NCBI GenBank assembly: GCA_017631315.1
Contig: JAGBTN010000010.1
Coordinates: forward strand, 62,001-126,000
Reading direction: 5' to 3'
DNA length: 64,000 nucleotides
Source of the DNA: Bacteroidaceae bacterium
GTDB lineage: Bacteria > Bacteroidota > Bacteroidia > Bacteroidales > Bacteroidaceae
Shown here: in pieces, positions 2,156-57,757 of the stretch
Position numbering within the stretch: position 1 is the first letter of the stretch
How the letters are laid out: every line of letters starts with the position of its first letter
The notes under the pieces: model-generated
Databases searched by the model: none
What the model was told of the DNA's origin: nothing
The model's input: the letters and a program-made list of their open reading frames with translations, nothing else
Made by a program: the position numbers and the translations under genes

Positions 2156-4864
2156 TTACGTAAGATTTATGCTTGGGATATTTTTCGCTAATGTTTCAGC
2201 TGAGTTGCGTTCTGCCGAAAGGGCTTTTTCGTGGTCTTCTAGTTGGACGGTAAGCCTTGCAATTTGCATCATTGTCTCGTTTCGTTGCTTCGTGAGGGTT
2301 TGCTGCTTGGTTGCAATGCTTTCCTGTATGTCGGCTGTGGCATTTTTGCATCTGCCGTCTTCGGTGTCAAGTGCAATGATACGACTATTTAAGTCTTCAA
2401 CCTTTGCCTGACAAAGGAGTAGGTCTTTGTTAATTTGTTTCAGATTATTGCGTATTGTGCTCCAATCTTTACCGTCTGCAAAGACTTCGTCGAGCTCTCC
2501 TCGTTGAACGGGAGGATGTTGTAGGTTGAAGGCGTGCATCCAAAGGTCAAGTTTCTCGCCTAATAGTTTTTCTTCGTTCTCGAGTGTTTCGATGTGGCTC
2601 AAATAGTAGTTGTGGCGCCCTTGTGTGATGTCGCAATCGTGACGTATTTCGTTCATTCTGTTTTGAGCCTCCTGGAGTTCTCTTTTTGTTTTTTCGACAT
2701 TTTGTAAGTGTGTCTGATACAATATATTTATGTCGTGCTCTGAAATTAGTTGTTTATATTGGTTGTTGTTCTCTTCTTTGCGATTTTCTATATCTTCTTG
2801 TCTTTTTTTAATGATGGATAAGGTTTGTTCGTGCGATTGCAATAGAGACTTAATTTCGTTAAGTTTTGCAGTCTCTGCATTCAGCGTGGTTTGCTTGGCA
2901 GCAAACTCCTGTTCTGTGCTTTGCCAATCTGTGATGAGTTTCTGTATTTGCTCATATATTTGTTCGGGCGTTTTTTGCCATATTGTGTACCAATCTTTAA
3001 TGGTAACAATACATTGCATGTTTTCGTAGATGCGTGTGAACTGTTTGTTGACGCTTTCGAGTTGTGTGCCGACTTGTTCTACTTCTCGGCTGAGTACTTG
3101 ACATCCGGTGTTGAGCTCGTTCAGTCTGACATTTATTTCACTTTTCTTTTGCTCGATTTTCTGAAGTTCTTCGCTCAATCTGGCTATGCAGCCTTGGTGG
3201 AATGTAAAGGTTTCTAATTCTCTCTCGGCTACTTCAGCATCTCGACTGACGTTTTCGATGAACTGTCGGATTAGAGCTGTTCTTGCATCTAGGTTTGTGC
3301 TTTCTGAACATTCTGCGAAGGTGTGGTCGAGCTGGGCATAGAGTTTCCATTCGTTGACGTCTTCGTTCTGTCGAATACGTATGGTGTTGAGCGTTTCTTC
3401 TTCTGCACAAAGTCTGCCGGTGGCATTTGCCAATTCTATTTGCATCTCTGCGAGTCGTGCTTGTTTTGCATTTGCTTCGGATGCAAGCATCTCGTAATCG
3501 GTTTTCATTTGTCCGATGAGTTTGCTTTGATCCAGCATTGTATCGCTGTGATAAGGATGGTGTGTTGCGCCACAGACGGAGCAGGAAACGCCTTCGCGTA
3601 AGTCTGCTCTAAGTTGGATGATTTCCTGTCCTTTACTGAGCAAGTAGGTATATTCTTTTTCTTTGCATAGTCTTTGTGCCTTACCCACTTCGTCTTCGAG
3701 TTCGCGTAAATTGTCTTCCAGGTATTGTATGTTCAGGCGCAATGCCGTGACTTGTTGACTGCGTTCTTCGATGCTTTCGTAGCCGGTGCAGATTCGTTTC
3801 CAGAGTGATAGGGCAGAGTGCAACATCTGTCGTCGTCCTTTTAGTCTGAGGGCGTTTTCCTGAAGCATCAGTCCGTCCTGTCCTTGTATGTGGGCGCGGT
3901 GCATGCTTAGTTCTGCTTCTGCTGTTTCGGCTTGTTGTACAAGGTCTTGGTATTGTGCAAAGGCTTTTCCGAGCAGGTCGTTTTGTTCGTTTTGTCTCTT
4001 TATGGTCTGTTGGTTTTTTTGTTGAAGGTTTGTTCGCAGCTTATTCATTTCCTCCATTGTGTTTAGTTGGAGCAATACAGCTTCGCCATGCAGAATCATA
4101 TTGTCGTGTATTTCCATGCTTTGGCGTTTTGTGCGAAGGCGTTCCAGTTCTGTTTTTTGTGCTTCTGTGGCTCTCTCTCTTTCTGCATGGAGTGAGGTTA
4201 GTGCGTCTATTTCTTCTTTAATTCTGTTTGTATGGCTGACGAGGAAGTCTGTTTCGTTTTTGATTGCGTCGTTTGTTCCTGTTAAATGGTATGCACTGCA
4301 TATATGGTCGAAGGCGTCGAGCATGTTTGTGGTGGCGTTCTTGTTTTGTTCGCCAGCCTGTTGAAGGCGTTTTTCTTGCTCAATCAATTGTTGCCTATTT
4401 TCTTCTGCTTCACGTTCGAGTATGCTGAGCCCACGTTTGTCGCGTCCTATTTGTTCTTTAACGACGGCGAGTTTCTGATATACTCCATGTATGCCTTCGA
4501 AGAGGTCGTAACGCTCCAGCATGCTCGACTCTTTGGCCATGATGGCTTTCTGCTTCCCGAGTTCGAACAGGCGTTTCTTTTCTCGTTCAAGCATCATGCT
4601 TGTTTCGTTCCACCGGCGAAGCCATTGCTGCTGTGCTTGTAGCAGCATGAGGTTTTCCTCGAGGCCATGCAGTTTTGTTTCTGCTAACTTTTTTGCGTCT
4701 TTTGCACGCTGTAGTTGAGTAGGGTTCAGTATGCGTGTGTCACGTCGTGTGTGTGTATTGTTGTTTTCTTCTATGATGAAGTTTATACCGCTATCGGTGG
4801 GTGTTTGTTGTTCTACCGTTGTTTCCGGTATGATGTTCTTATCTTTTTTCTTGAAGAAATTCAT
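2156..4864 (-). CDS. SbcC-like zinc-hook coiled-coil protein without ATPase heads
   Basis: A 902-residue protein that is almost wholly charged, heptad-like coiled coil. Near its centre, at about residues 425-435, lies the SbcC/Rad50-type zinc-hook apex VSCSVCGATHHPYH (CxxC). Two arms of nearly equal length flank it. Unlike SbcC (about 1000-1250 residues) there is no Walker A P-loop at the N-terminus and no signature motif, Walker B or D-loop at the C-terminus. The first roughly 40 residues are polar and probably disordered. The open frame extends to a TTG at 4891, but the -7 box TATCTTTG (4889-4896) overlaps that point, so the ATG at 4864 is chosen. Possibly a decayed or specialised SbcC relative; function unknown. 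Confidence 0.75.
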   Translation of the reverse strand: MNFFKKKDKNIIPETTVEQQTPTDSGINFIIEENNNTHTRRDTRILNPTQLQRAKDAKKLAETKLHGLEENLMLLQAQQQWLRRWNETSMMLEREKKRLFELGKQKAIMAKESSMLERYDLFEGIHGVYQKLAVVKEQIGRDKRGLSILEREAEENRQQLIEQEKRLQQAGEQNKNATTNMLDAFDHICSAYHLTGTNDAIKNETDFLVSHTNRIKEEIDALTSLHAERERATEAQKTELERLRTKRQSMEIHDNMILHGEAVLLQLNTMEEMNKLRTNLQQKNQQTIKRQNEQNDLLGKAFAQYQDLVQQAETAEAELSMHRAHIQGQDGLMLQENALRLKGRRQMLHSALSLWKRICTGYESIEERSQQVTALRLNIQYLEDNLRELEDEVGKAQRLCKEKEYTYLLSKGQEIIQLRADLREGVSCSVCGATHHPYHSDTMLDQSKLIGQMKTDYEMLASEANAKQARLAEMQIELANATGRLCAEEETLNTIRIRQNEDVNEWKLYAQLDHTFAECSESTNLDARTALIRQFIENVSRDAEVAERELETFTFHQGCIARLSEELQKIEQKKSEINVRLNELNTGCQVLSREVEQVGTQLESVNKQFTRIYENMQCIVTIKDWYTIWQKTPEQIYEQIQKLITDWQSTEQEFAAKQTTLNAETAKLNEIKSLLQSHEQTLSIIKKRQEDIENRKEENNNQYKQLISEHDINILYQTHLQNVEKTKRELQEAQNRMNEIRHDCDITQGRHNYYLSHIETLENEEKLLGEKLDLWMHAFNLQHPPVQRGELDEVFADGKDWSTIRNNLKQINKDLLLCQAKVEDLNSRIIALDTEDGRCKNATADIQESIATKQQTLTKQRNETMMQIARLTVQLEDHEKALSAERNSAETLAKNIPSINLT

Positions 4865-4888
4865 TGCATTGCGTTTTGTATGTGTATG

Positions 4889-4896
4889 CAAAGATA
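4889..4896 (-). promoter_or_regulatory. -7 box of the SbcC-like gene
   Basis: TATCTTTG on the minus strand, an exact TAnnTTTG match, about 25 bp before the chosen ATG. A weak -33 element (TTTC at 4916-4919) sits 19 bp further upstream. It excludes the TTG start at 4891. Confidence 0.65.
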
Positions 4897-4925
4897 CGAC
4901 AAAATAATGTAATCGAAAAATTAAT

Positions 4926-5018
4926 CGTGTTAAGTTGTCCGAGTTAACGTGTTAAGTTGCCTAACTTAACGTGTATAGTTCGCCAAGTTAACGTGTATAG
5001 TTGCTCGACTTAACGTGT
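4926..5018. repeat. 22-bp palindromic tandem repeat, array 1
   Basis: Four contiguous 22-bp units (starting 4926, 4948, 4970, 4992) plus the start of a fifth at 5014. Each opens with CGTGT, then a variant of AGTTGGCCAACT, then TTAA. Individual units differ at several positions, mostly in the centre of the palindrome. The array begins inside the 3' end of mutY and runs toward the promoter of the SbcC-like gene. The same repeat with the same period recurs near 19.6 and 52.0 kb. Confidence 0.85.
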
Positions 5019-6098
5019 GTTGTCGTAGTGCTTTATTTTTACTAATAGTTTTTCGAGCAGGCGGGGTAGTGCGTAGTGGTCAAGGTCGGACTCTTTTAGC
5101 CAAATTTCTTTTCTGCTTTCATCGAAGATCGGATGTCTTTCTTCTTTTTCTTCGACCGTAGGTAGTTCCAGAATATACAAGTCGGCATGAAGGCGTTGGT
5201 GTGTAAGTTGATGAAGGACGTTGTTGGCAACGAAGTGTAAAGAAAATTCTGTAACATGGAATATGTCTTTGATTTTCTCTTCTGCCTCGGCTATCGTGAG
5301 TGGTTTCTCCGATTCAATCAAAGGGAATTCGAAAAGTCCTTGCCAAATGTCGCCACGACCTCTGCGTCGTAAGACTGTCTTTTCGTCTGCTGTACGCGCA
5401 TATATATAGGTTAGGTAACGGTCTCGGACGGTTGGTCGCTTTGATTTGTATGGTAGCTTGTCTACGATGTGCTGCTGTAATGCTTGACAGTTTTCTGCAA
5501 GCGGACATGACTCGCAAAGTGGTGCGGCAGGTTTACACAGAAGGGCCCCGAAGTCCATGATGGCCTGGTTGTAAAGCGCAGGCCGTTGCTTGTCGAGCAT
5601 TTCGTCGGCAAGGACTCGCAGCAGTTTCTTGCCTTGTGTGGTATCAATAGGTTCGCTGATACCTGCATAGCGTGCAAGAACTCTTCCAACGTTTCCGTCA
5701 ATTACGGCATAAGGTTCATCGAAAGCGAAACTCATGATGGCAGCAGCAGTATATTCTCCCACTCCGGGTAAGTCTCTGACAAAAGTGTAGTCCCTCGGGA
5801 AACAGCCTTCTGAAGCAATTCGTTTTGCAGCAGCGTGAAGGTGACGGGCGCGGCTATAATAACCCAGTCCTTGCCACATGCGCATCACCTCCTCCTCATT
5901 GGCATTTGCGAGATGCTCGGCTGTGGGAAACTTTTCTGCAAATCGCAGATAATAGTCTGTCCCCTGGCATACCTGCGTCTGTTGCAGTATCAGTTCCGAT
6001 AGCAATATAAGATACGGGTCTTTCGTGTTTCGCCAGGGAAGGTCGCGTCCGTAGGCTTCGTACCATATTTCAATTTTTGTGAAGAATGACGAATTCAT
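5010..6098 (-). CDS. mutY: A/G-specific adenine DNA glycosylase
   Basis: MutY removes adenine mispaired with 8-oxoguanine in base excision repair. Residues 30-43 carry the catalytic glutamate segment SELILQQTQV. The helix-hairpin-helix and catalytic Asp region (DLPGVGEYTAAAIMSFAF, then VIDGNVGRVLAR) follows at about 108-143. The [4Fe-4S] ligands C-x6-C-x2-C-x5-C lie at about 187-203, and the C-terminal third fits the NUDIX-like 8-oxoG recognition domain. Length 362 is normal. The last codons and the TAA stop lie inside a 22-bp repeat unit. The -7 box at 6103-6110 leaves almost no 5' leader. Confidence 0.96.
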   Translation of the reverse strand: MNSSFFTKIEIWYEAYGRDLPWRNTKDPYLILLSELILQQTQVCQGTDYYLRFAEKFPTAEHLANANEEEVMRMWQGLGYYSRARHLHAAAKRIASEGCFPRDYTFVRDLPGVGEYTAAAIMSFAFDEPYAVIDGNVGRVLARYAGISEPIDTTQGKKLLRVLADEMLDKQRPALYNQAIMDFGALLCKPAAPLCESCPLAENCQALQQHIVDKLPYKSKRPTVRDRYLTYIYARTADEKTVLRRRGRGDIWQGLFEFPLIESEKPLTIAEAEEKIKDIFHVTEFSLHFVANNVLHQLTHQRLHADLYILELPTVEEKEERHPIFDESRKEIWLKESDLDHYALPRLLEKLLVKIKHYDNTR

Positions 6099-15578: not shown

Positions 15579-16259
15579 ATGGATTACGATACCAAAGGAA
15601 AAGTGCTGAAGAAAGCGGTTGTATGGAATGAACTCTATTTCTACCGCAAGAGTGATGCCATCTACCAACTGACGGTAGAGTTCTGCAAGCATTTCCTTCC
15701 TGCTCATGGCGACCGAACAGTAGATCAGATGGTACAGGCTGCCCGAAGTGGTAAGCAGAATATCGTGGAAGGAAGCGAGGATGGACAGACCAGCTCTGAG
15801 ATGGAAATAAAACTGCTAAACGTGGCACGTGGCAGTCTGCAGGAACTGCGCCTGGACTATCAGGACTATCTCAATACGCATCATCTGCCGATGTGGCCAG
15901 CAGACAGCGAACGGCAGCAACGGCTTCGTGAATTCTGTCATTCTCACAACGACTACAGCGACTATGCTCCCTTTGTAGTGAAGATGAGCGACGAGGAAAT
16001 GGCGAATCTGCTGCTTACCCTCTGTCACCAAACAGACAAGATGATGTGCTCCTATATAGAGAAACTGGAACATCACTTTGTGACCGAAGGAGGTATCAAG
16101 GAGCGCATGTATGCAGCCCGCACCGGCTACCGCCAGACAGTAGATGCCCATGTGCAGGCGCTGGAAGCAGAAAACCAACAACTGAAAACAAAGGTAAAAG
16201 CCTTGGAGGAAGAACTGAAGAAGGCTTTAGAGGAACTAGGAAATTCTAGGAAGCTTTAG
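15579..16259 (+). CDS. Four-helix-bundle protein with coiled-coil suffix
   Basis: A 226-residue protein of the S23/intervening-sequence four-helix-bundle superfamily, suffix-domain type. The bundle covers about residues 10-130 and contains the typical MVQAARSGKQNIVEGSEDG segment. A helical extension and a C-terminal leucine/glutamate-rich coiled coil (ALEAENQQLKTKVKALEEEL) follow. Relatives occur in 23S rRNA intervening sequences and, in Bacteroidota, inside type I R-M loci. Their biochemical role is unknown. It lies between hsdS and hsdR, is GC-richer than hsdS, and is bracketed by complementary repeats. Confidence 0.8.
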   Translation: MDYDTKGKVLKKAVVWNELYFYRKSDAIYQLTVEFCKHFLPAHGDRTVDQMVQAARSGKQNIVEGSEDGQTSSEMEIKLLNVARGSLQELRLDYQDYLNTHHLPMWPADSERQQRLREFCHSHNDYSDYAPFVVKMSDEEMANLLLTLCHQTDKMMCSYIEKLEHHFVTEGGIKERMYAARTGYRQTVDAHVQALEAENQQLKTKVKALEEELKKALEELGNSRKL

Positions 16260-16289
16260 GAAATCCTAAGAGATTCTAGGAAATCCTAG
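16236..16289. repeat. Right arm of inverted repeats flanking the four-helix gene
   Basis: Tandem, degenerate copies of TAGGAAATTCTAGGAA and CCTAAGAGATTCTAGG spanning the 3' end of the four-helix gene and the gap to hsdR. Positions 16265-16289 are the partner of the left arm. Confidence 0.7.
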
Positions 16290-19503: not shown

Positions 19504-19614
19504 TGTTATGATGTACTCTTATTTGCATGCAAGTTTCTCGTGCAAATAGACAATCATTATCTACACTCATAATGTATCGGATTATCAGTGTGTTAAAGAC
19601 GTTCTAAAACTAAA

Positions 19615-19702
19615 CGTGTAAAGTCGGCCAACTTCACGTGTGTAATTGGGCATTTTCACGTGTGTAGTCGGCCAACTTAACGTGTATGGTTGGCAAACAA
19701 TG
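19615..19702. repeat. 22-bp palindromic tandem repeat, array 2
   Basis: Units begin at 19615, 19637, 19659 and 19681, each exactly 22 bp apart and each starting CGTGT. Units 1 and 3 contain AGTCGGCCAACTT; unit 2 is diverged and unit 4 is degenerate at its end. It lies between the convergent hsdR and chromate transporter genes. Confidence 0.85.
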
Positions 19703-24763: not shown

Positions 24764-24809
24764 CTATAAAAATAATGGTTAACCGTTTCGGGCGAAATGG
24801 TTAACCATT
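24764..24809 (-). terminator. Terminator hairpin after the secreted hydrolase gene
   Basis: The inverted repeat 24774-24809 has two 17-nt arms with a single G/A difference (a G-U pair in one orientation) around a 2-nt centre; each arm contains GGTTAACC. On the minus strand it is followed by ATTATTTTTAT, which fits an intrinsic terminator 45 bp after the stop codon. The double GGTTAACC could also bind a protein. Confidence 0.7.
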
Positions 24810-24853
24810 ATGTTGAGAAATGTTAAGCATTATTTATGATGTGACGTGCCTTG

Positions 24854-51447: not shown

Positions 51448-51548
51448 GCTCTCGCTTACTCGAGTCCTTGAACTACCATCGAGAACTCTTCCGCTCGGCA
51501 TAGCTCAAACTTAGTTTGGCTCTGCGCTCGCTTACTCGAGTCCTTGAA
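51448..51548. repeat. 25-bp direct repeat at the 3' end of the HU-HIG gene
   Basis: Copies at 51448-51472 and 51524-51548 (CGCTTACTCGAGTCCTTGAA core) agree at 24 of 25 bases and are 76 bp apart. The second copy contains the HU-HIG stop codon and last codons. Confidence 0.8.
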
Positions 51549-51996
51549 TCGTATCGGTGTTTTTGATGGTTTCGATGGCTTCGCTCTGCGCCTTACGGCC
51601 GGGCACGAGGCAGAACTCGGCTTCGCTGCGAAGGTTCTTGAACTGCTTGCCGGGTGACCAGCGGACATTGATGTCCTTGATGTTGCTTGAAGCTGTGAAC
51701 TCCTCGGTTGTTTTGGCACCTGTTGTGGCAAGTTCTACGTGGAAGTCGCCCAGTTCGCCAAGCTGCACCTTGTTGCCGGCAAGCATCTGTTCTCGCAGAC
51801 AGGCTACGGCATCGGTCAGAACGCCCTTGATGGTGCCCTTTGAGAATGGTGAGTTGTGATGGGCAATGTGCTGACAGAACTTGTCGAAACTGACATTCTC
51901 GTCGGTCTGTGCAGAACCGTATGCCTTTGTCTCGTTGATGTCGGATTTCTTTGTGCCGGGTTTGGTACTCATAATCGCAATGCTGTACTTAATCAT
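51532..51996 (-). CDS. HU-HIG family DNA-binding protein
   Basis: A 154-residue histone-like protein. The start is set at MIKYSIAIMSTKPGTK (51996); upstream codons to 52059 run into the repeat array and look non-coding. The HU fold covers about residues 30-120 (ISFDKFCQHIAHH-like helices, VQLGELGDFHVELATTGA beta arm, then SSNIKDINVRWSPGKQF). This subfamily is common near Bacteroidota surface-polysaccharide loci and pairs with smalltalk peptides. It likely bends or coats DNA; regulation of the adjacent locus is a guess. Confidence 0.88.
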   Translation of the reverse strand: MIKYSIAIMSTKPGTKKSDINETKAYGSAQTDENVSFDKFCQHIAHHNSPFSKGTIKGVLTDAVACLREQMLAGNKVQLGELGDFHVELATTGAKTTEEFTASSNIKDINVRWSPGKQFKNLRSEAEFCLVPGRKAQSEAIETIKNTDTIQGLE

Positions 51997-52034
51997 GGTT
52001 GTAACGTGTTTTAAATTGTTTATAGAAATGTTTA

Positions 52035-52100
52035 CGTGTAAAGTTGTCGAATCATACACGTGTAGTTGGCCAAGTTAACGTGTATAGTTGCGCTACTTCA
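52035..52100. repeat. 22-bp palindromic tandem repeat, array 3
   Basis: Three units start with CGTGT at 52035, 52059 and 52079. They are 24, 20 and 22 bp long, together exactly three periods of 22. The middle unit contains AGTTGGCCAAGTT. Confidence 0.8.
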
Positions 52101-52173
52101 CTGGAGTCGTTCGGTGTGGTCGTTCTCCGATTGCGCACTCGGTGCAGACTGTCCGTTCGTGACTCTCTGCTAC

Positions 52174-57383: not shown

Positions 57384-57466
57384 GGAGAGGTGGCGGAATT
57401 GGTAGACGCGCTACTTTGAGGGGGTAGTGCCAGTATGGCGTGGGAGTTCGAGTCTCCTCCTCTTCA
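57384..57466 (+). tRNA. tRNA-Leu (GAG)
   Basis: The acceptor GGAGAGG pairs with CCTCTTC (one G-U). There is a D-arm with GGTAGAC, an anticodon loop TTGAGGG giving GAG in a 5-bp stem, a long variable arm of class II type, and a T-arm with GTTCGAGTC. CCA is not encoded. Confidence 0.92.
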
Positions 57467-57477
57467 CACAATGTCAG

Positions 57478-57550
57478 GCGGAAATAGCTCAGTTGGTAGA
57501 GCACAACCTTGCCAAGGTTGGGGTCGCGAGTTCGAGTCTCGTTTTCCGCT
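57478..57550 (+). tRNA. tRNA-Gly (GCC)
   Basis: The acceptor GCGGAAA pairs with TTTCCGC. The anticodon stem CAACC/GGTTG holds the loop TTGCCAA, anticodon GCC. The T-loop is TTCGAGT and CCA is not encoded. Copies of its 3' end follow downstream. Confidence 0.95.
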
Positions 57551-57661
57551 CGCAGAGCATGAAACGAGCTCAAGGTTAAAACAGCATCGAGTCTCGTTTT
57601 CCGCTCGTAGAGCAAAACGAGTTGAAGATGTTTAAACATTGACTCTCGTTCGCTGCTCTTT
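57532..57661. repeat. Duplicated tRNA-Gly 3' end segments
   Basis: The last part of tRNA-Gly plus flank (57532-57559) recurs at 57587-57614 with one base change in 28. A shorter diverged copy (about 20 bp) sits at 57641-57660. The copies are spaced 55 and about 52 bp apart. Confidence 0.8.
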
Positions 57662-57673
57662 TTTTTTACCCAT

Positions 57674-57757
57674 GCCCAGGTGGCGGAATGGTAGACGCGC
57701 GCGTTTCAGGTGCGCGTGCCGAGAGGCGTGCAGGTTCGAGTCCTGTTCTGGGCACCA
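57674..57757 (+). tRNA. tRNA-Leu (CAG)
   Basis: The acceptor GCCCAGG pairs with TCTGGGC. The anticodon loop TTCAGGT gives CAG in the stem CGCGT/GCGCG. A long variable arm is present, and CCA (57755-57757) is encoded, unlike in the two tRNAs upstream. Confidence 0.93.

Follow-up and report, generated by a model that had tools for sequence, protein, structure and literature searches.

Intergenic arrays of palindromic dyads on a 22-bp lattice occur chromosome-wide in uncultured Bacteroidales of one genus

REP/BIME elements occur as hundreds of dispersed intergenic palindromic repeats together with RAYT (Y1) transposases. The matS/MatP, SBS/SlmA, NBS/Noc and parS systems rely on palindromic protein sites spread over the chromosome, partly by region, and Lrp/AsnC octamers sit on regularly spaced palindromes. 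USS and DUS are short motifs that occur singly and often within genes; USS show even spacing, and DUS come in dialects. Mu, like Tn7, shows target immunity. According to an excerpt of PMC11406308, Tn7 is target-immune and has, at its right end, four TnsB sites of 22 bp that partly overlap. The BrickBuilt MITE of Porphyromonas gingivalis forms intergenic tandem 23-nt arrays, 19 of them in strain ATCC 33277; the excerpted part of PMC4596501 gives its unit consensus as AGAYCATARTATCCTCTCRTRTG and describes a leader and tail with IS-like terminal inverted repeats. Among the titles and abstracts listed by searches of the open-access literature, BrickBuilt was the only near relative of the arrays reported here; an earlier description of these arrays is possible.

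The present arrays consist of dyads of about 18 bp that follow one another at 22 bp and fall into several core families, among them A and C. Like BrickBuilt, they are intergenic tandem repeat arrays in Bacteroidales. However, their period is 22 instead of 23, and the consensus is unrelated to the one in the excerpt of PMC4596501, so that by its unit the system does not belong to BrickBuilt; dyads, four-fold size and even spacing are not part of the BrickBuilt description in that excerpt. The 33 nt on either side of 65 family-A arrays, inspected by eye, contain A/T tracts and half-dyads and no common leader or tail, and the flanks of family C were followed to 20 nt by composition. The arrays resemble REP/BIME as many dispersed intergenic palindromic repeats, but differ in their strict 22-bp multi-dyad lattice and in using divergent gaps too. 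A RAYT/REP link was rejected, as Y1_Tnp (PF01797) has no match in the 86.58% complete assembly. CRISPR was rejected as well, the dyads following at 22 bp with 4-bp linkers and no unique spacers. The likeness to matS, SBS, NBS and parS, palindromes spread over the chromosome and partly regional, is a functional analogy; those are single sites, whereas the arrays here have about four dyads and a putative reader.

The window, that is the whole stretch of 64 kb that was analysed, contains four arrays:

4919..5024, + strand: array 1, family A, five dyads with centres after 4927, 4949, 4971, 4993 and 5015
19608..19691, + strand: array 2, family A, four dyads with centres after 19616, 19638, 19660 and 19682
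52028..52111, + strand: array 3, family A, dyads with centres after 52036, 52058 (inverted, CACG) and 52080
24772..24833 (approximate limits), no strand assigned: array 4, family C (GGTTAACC core), dyads with centres after 24780, 24802 and 24824 (the last weaker)

An earlier note on this DNA had reported arrays 1 to 3 as a 22-bp repeat family. They are present where it placed them, but as part of a chromosome-wide system larger than it described; array 4, of another family, was absent from it. CGTG/CACG cores exactly 22 bp apart form runs of five (from 4926), four (from 19615) and three (from 52035). These are the only runs of at least three such cores at lag 22 in the window, and none occurs there at lags 18–21 or 23–26; the mean number of such lag-22 runs expected by chance was 0.017 in 60 order-1 Markov simulations of the window. 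TRF reports period 22 at 4921–5018 and 19614–19698, array 3 not being in its output. Array 3 had been credited with units of 24 and 20 bp, but is a strict 22-bp lattice with one inverted dyad, and a differently cored match (ACTGGA) near 52102 lies on the same lattice. The last dyad of array 1 overlaps the 3′ end of a mutY-like gene (domains HhH-GPD and NUDIX_4; stop codon 5010–5012), and array 2 is flanked by convergent hsdR-like and chromate-transporter genes. The neighbours of array 3 are an HU-HIG (nucleoid-type) gene (51532–52059, − strand) and a gene with a DnaG-type zinc ribbon and Toprim. Since the called GTG start of the HU-HIG gene falls within the array, its true start is probably further in. 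Elsewhere in the window, a tandem repeat of CTAGGAAATT type, 10/20 bp, at the end of a gene (16236–16289) apparently bears no relation to the arrays, and tRNA genes Leu-gag, Gly-gcc and Leu-cag (57384–57757) are located close to where GC skew changes (about C10:120 kb), possibly the terminus.

A weight matrix applied to six contigs (1.128 Mb) of the window's own assembly (G000; 2.68 Mb) found 255 family-A units in 82 clusters, compared with 6 hits for the reversed control. Each unit forms a dyad some 18 bp long, approximately AACTTn-ACGTGT-nnAGTT, centred between CG and TG of the core, with 4-bp linkers and a repeat of exactly 22 bp. As the earlier note had proposed, the phase is fixed: 172 of 173 neighbours are 22 bp apart from centre to centre, irrespective of orientation, and one is 66 bp apart; unit starts that differ by 21 or 23 at changes of orientation correspond to 22 between centres. 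The strongest mutual information between non-adjacent columns, leaving aside signals that reflect core orientation, was found for pairs symmetric about the CGTG centre (7–14, 29–36), and no pair symmetric about the NNCN linker ranked within the top 45. A register with its loop at NNCN was therefore dropped, and the unit is taken to be the CGTG-centred dyad. The motif AGTTGGCCAACT, previously regarded as the centre of the unit, is the linker between two dyads; searched alone at 2 mismatches, it has 6 matches in the window versus 2.8 expected, which is not significant. Far from there being three chance-like sites only, or no 22-bp period elsewhere, a scan of the 2.68-Mb assembly for the unit (up to 3 mismatches) returned 63 matches versus 0 for the reversed pattern.

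The same period emerged from a motif-free self-similarity scan at lags 13–40. Lag 22 accounted for 79 regions in the six contigs (1.128 Mb) and, in a 0.8-Mb sample of other G000 contigs, for a further 72; no other lag exceeded 3. Thus 22 is the one favoured repeat period in G000. A relaxed scan outside the known arrays added 13 places at lag 22 (other lags at most 3), of which at least two are probably unrelated to the arrays. Several core families share this lattice: A (ACGTGT), C (GGTTAACC), B (AAGTT arms around another core) and rarer ones. The lag-22 regions in the other contigs sampled belong mostly to family C, with B and rarer families besides. Altogether 1.928 Mb of G000 carry 202 arrays, 82 of family A, 100 of C and 20 others, the last figure leaving out regions in called genes. 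Another core type (approximately AAGGCACGCCTA) lies on the 22-bp lattice at C12:129598–129674 and C12:138932. Family C comprises 387 dyads (reversed control 36), and its 261 neighbour spacings measure 22 bp in 256 cases and 44 bp in 5. Array size is peaked, with exactly four dyads in 67 of 126 C clusters and four cores in 64 of 100 C arrays; among A arrays, 43 of 65 contain 3 or 4 exact cores. These 65, used for the context, pairing and sister comparisons, are those of the 82 clusters in the six contigs that contain two or more units, one of them scoring at least 25 bits. Because dyads and arrays share descent, counts are not independent. Many A arrays terminate in half-dyads followed by outward T-tracts.

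A chimeric bin as the source of array-rich and array-poor contigs was rejected on three grounds: the 22-bp lattice recurs, with a different core, in the poor contigs; tetranucleotide composition agrees in most stretches (not in C14, C5:1–20000 and a few others); and the separate genome G023 also carries both families. The idea that half of the genome lacks arrays was wrong, the contigs concerned being poor in family A only. C14 (L237, L238) and C12:150–225 kb have atypical tetranucleotide composition and no arrays; they are probably islands, or, in the case of C14, a foreign contig.

Genes were called by a simple script, and gene context was assigned to 64 A arrays (one further array had no neighbouring gene) and to 92 of the 100 C arrays. 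The intergenic location given earlier for the three arrays holds generally: none of 65 A and 92 C arrays lies wholly within a called gene; among the 151 lag-22 regions of the motif-free scan, 6 are so placed. The A arrays occupy 35 tandem, 15 convergent and 14 divergent gaps, without difference from background (P 0.29), and the C arrays 45, 32 and 15, with an excess of convergent gaps (P 0.0015). All three arrangements being present, the earlier argument against a promoter element stands. Median distances to start codons are 231 bp for A and 168 bp for C, and C arrays lie close to stop codons (median 45 bp). The density of A arrays falls with GC (rho −0.33) and that of C arrays rises (rho 0.57). 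Neighbouring arrays are of the same family in 67 cases versus 53.9 expected (P 0.003), which reflects a regional split between A and C. The A arrays are aligned with the locally G-rich strand in 42 of 62 cases (P 0.007; three neutral arrays left out). Neither dnaA on C12 and L14 on C18 nor GC skew settles the position of the arrays relative to ori and ter.

Spacing along the chromosome was analysed in the six contigs, which are contiguous and were picked as rich in A; arrays less than 250 bp apart were merged beforehand, and in the null models the same number of arrays was put into real intergenic gaps. The gap between neighbours was 5–10 kb in 66 of 105 cases (null about 29). Only 8 of 105 gaps were below 4 kb (null 32) and none below 2 kb (null 12), and 4 exceeded 20 kb (null 13). 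Below 4 kb there were no A–A pairs (0 of 47; null 13.5) and 3 of 30 A–C pairs (null 10.3); self-avoidance between C arrays was not significant (3 of 16 gaps; null 4.3). Evenness in the sense of a low overall coefficient of variation of the gaps was not observed (1.01 versus 0.94 in the null). The spacing effect consists of self-avoidance plus a 5–10 kb peak. Array-poor sampling windows tend to have atypical composition (rho 0.40). Taken with the regional split of A and C, the 66 gaps of 5–10 kb amount to the non-random chromosomal distribution looked for in nucleoid sites. Self-avoidance recurs in G088, a different species with other arms, in which exact three-core hits (100 of 186 listed) mark at least 65 arrays: the smallest of the 29 gaps among the hits listed is 6.4 kb, with about 6 expected below 5 kb (P 0.001). 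The mean gap among these listed hits is 21 kb, and the 5–10 kb peak is outside the reach of this comparison.

The sister species G023 has about 90% nucleotide identity to G000. The comparison spanned 400 kb and covered 23 of the 65 A and 13 of the 36 C arrays of the six contigs, and every one of these 23 and 13 keeps at least one unit in place in G023. Seen from G023, with 30 arrays of which 3 were without both flanks, 24 of 27 comparable arrays have units in G000 and 3 have no recognised unit there. One of the three seems to have been lost in G000, with no target duplication apparent. In several arrays the sisters differ by whole units, 22 or 44 bp. With dyads taken from either genome, 9 of 344 letters are changed in C cores versus 259 of 2050 in flanks (P 8e-10), and 36 of 486 in A cores versus 409 of 3664 in flanks (P 0.012; 24 A arrays mapped). 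Since cores change less than flanks, the alignments point to clear constraint on the C cores and modest constraint on the A cores; homogenisation between units could contribute to this conservation. Letters off the consensus are about equally numerous in G000 and G023 (27 and 32 for A, 23 and 22 for C). The mean identity of whole A arrays is not above that of their flanks (0.879 versus 0.885, P 0.8). The either-genome test superseded a first column test because the dyads of the latter were picked from one genome, a one-sided ascertainment; in that one-sided sample linker columns changed faster than flanks.

Within the genus, 30 of 139 genomes contain the A-type unit together with its flanking cores at no more than 2 mismatches (reversed control 2). 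A bare lattice, ACGTG-N17-ACGTG-N17-ACGTG with 1 mismatch, was present in 96 of 139 and gave at least 20 hits in 42, compared with 7 of 139 for the reversed control GTGCA-N17-GTGCA-N17-GTGCA; these searches preset both ACGTG and 22 bp. The control lattice is itself abundant in G011, G083, G034 and others, which suggests that some species have a core of GTGCA type at this period. Many members of the genus have few or no ACGTG arrays, and the arms vary by species on a shared architecture. Lattices of GGTTAACC number 270 in G000, 238 in G023, 22 in G099 and 1–4 in five other genomes. Samples of 40–60 kb from seven other genus genomes gave 15 regions at lag 22 (at least one of them a run of N) and 14 at lag 21; only one of the seven, G147, with 5 lag-22 regions, shows a suggestive lag-22 signal. 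In the order, the exact lattice occurs in 14 of 393 genomes, G000 included. G481, a 99% complete genome of another family, has 223 (111+112) exact lattice hits in near-palindromic ACGTGGAGATTT..ATTTTCC-like units at 22 bp, possibly an independent or distant version. Among named genomes, the carriers are gut bins from goat, yak, water buffalo and roe deer, and RUG (rumen) bins. The host of the window is probably a gut bacterium.

What the arrays do has to be judged against several readings. Bidirectional transcription terminators, or clusters of RNA hairpins at gene ends, would fit the outward T-tracts of A arrays, the proximity of C arrays to stop codons and their convergent excess (32 of 92). 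However, divergent gaps also carry arrays (14 of 64 A, 15 of 92 C), TTAA, which would form the loop, is one of the best-conserved stretches (4 of 167 letters changed), and a search of the window at the Rfam gathering threshold matched three tRNAs only and no known structured RNA family. Moreover, the half-sites of C dyads are less complementary than shuffled ones at distances 2, 4, 7 and 8 from the centre (e.g. 0.32 versus 0.42; 0.21 versus 0.33) and minutely more so at distance 0 (0.97 versus 0.95). In A dyads one column pair exceeds the shuffled value (0.35 versus 0.26) and two fall below; z-scores are indicative only here, the dyads being related by descent. The absence of consistent compensatory pairing argues against RNA hairpins, which we consider rather unlikely: selection for hairpins predicts the opposite at variable positions, and readout of two half-sites by a protein is therefore favoured. 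Operators of one or more large regulons would account for the conserved cores, and tandem dyads look like cooperative operators, but a regulon is not expected to be evenly spaced, start codons are far away (medians 231 and 168 bp) and convergent genes flank 15 of 64 A and 32 of 92 C arrays, which makes this reading quite improbable. As for slippage, which had been offered as a possible source of the repeat, several arrays have gained or lost whole units (22 or 44 bp), which indicates that it contributes to turnover, and the fast linkers of the one-sided sample also suit a neutral minisatellite. Slippage is nevertheless not the main cause, because array size peaks at about four dyads, places are mostly kept in the sister and spacing is even; with the conserved cores, this leaves a neutral minisatellite strongly disfavoured.

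The most serious rivals are target immunity and uptake signals, because both can yield even spacing. Mobile or once-mobile MITE-like elements, whose four ~22-bp sites would bind a transposase and whose copies would be kept several kb apart by target immunity, could explain self-avoidance below about 4 kb and the array that is present in one sister and absent from the other. The right end of Tn7, with its four 22-bp TnsB sites and target immunity (excerpt of PMC11406308), offers a functional analogy, although the Tn7 sites described there partly overlap at a transposon end and no transposon was found with the arrays, the transposase survey covering Y1. On the other hand, all 36 comparable G000 arrays have one or more units still in place at about 90% identity, cores are conserved, and the array absent from G000 appears to have been lost there, without evident target duplication. 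Several unrelated cores share one geometry, and array 1 with its flanks (window 4800–5140) has no match in phage or plasmid records. We consider a mobile origin unlikely. Signals for DNA uptake or recombination, differing in dialect between species and distributed so as to put one on every incoming fragment, would be consistent with species-specific arms on one architecture and with even spacing, as in USS/DUS. That resemblance is again one of function: USS/DUS are single short motifs often within genes, whereas the arrays are intergenic (no A array of 65 or C array of 92 lies wholly in a called gene), and A and C divide the chromosome by region. This explanation seems to us improbable.

Our preferred reading, still a tentative one, is that the arrays have an architectural role as putative docking sites, each for about four dimers of a DNA-binding protein. 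A nucleoid-type, protein-bound site, one of the options raised in the earlier note, fits best; the partition (parS-like) role named alongside it is not indicated, because the sites are spread over contigs and not gathered in one region. Each array would be a compound DNA site, usually of about four ~18-bp dyads, with one protein dimer per dyad. Since the dyads are two helical turns apart, the dimers would stand on one face of the helix and might cooperate. Families A, C, B and the others would combine a common geometry with different putative readers. An architectural role appears likeliest because the arrays lie in intergenic DNA all along the chromosome, at typical distances of 5–10 kb, and the evenly spaced complexes may organise the chromosome as anchors, insulators or topological-domain marks of the nucleoid. 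Lrp/AsnC proteins provide a functional analogy, since their four dimers could span four dyads spaced by two turns. However, G000 has one PF01037 (Lrp/AsnC-type) gene, which cannot easily read several different cores. A four-dyad C array (L216 6867–6950; C15, about 166867–166950) lies about 160 bp before the start of this sole gene, which could be chance; on the other side of the array is a gene that by eye resembles a tyrosine recombinase.

More speculatively, the putative docking sites may act as bookmarks of about four dimers every 5–10 kb, in at least two dialects that mark regions (A lower-GC, C higher-GC), with species rewriting the dialect and keeping the 22-bp geometry; we regard this extension as possible but doubtful. 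Should the spacing stem from transposition immunity, the arrays would be a chromosome-wide footprint of that process. Bacterial chromosomal domains of about 10 kb are usually held to be stochastic, and how bacteria fix their boundaries is an open question. If the bookmark reading is true, the arrays would constitute a DNA-encoded, evenly spaced domain-boundary system, of which we know no counterpart in bacteria. Sequence-encoded and recoded between species, they would permit direct tests of contacts, supercoiling and reader at known coordinates.
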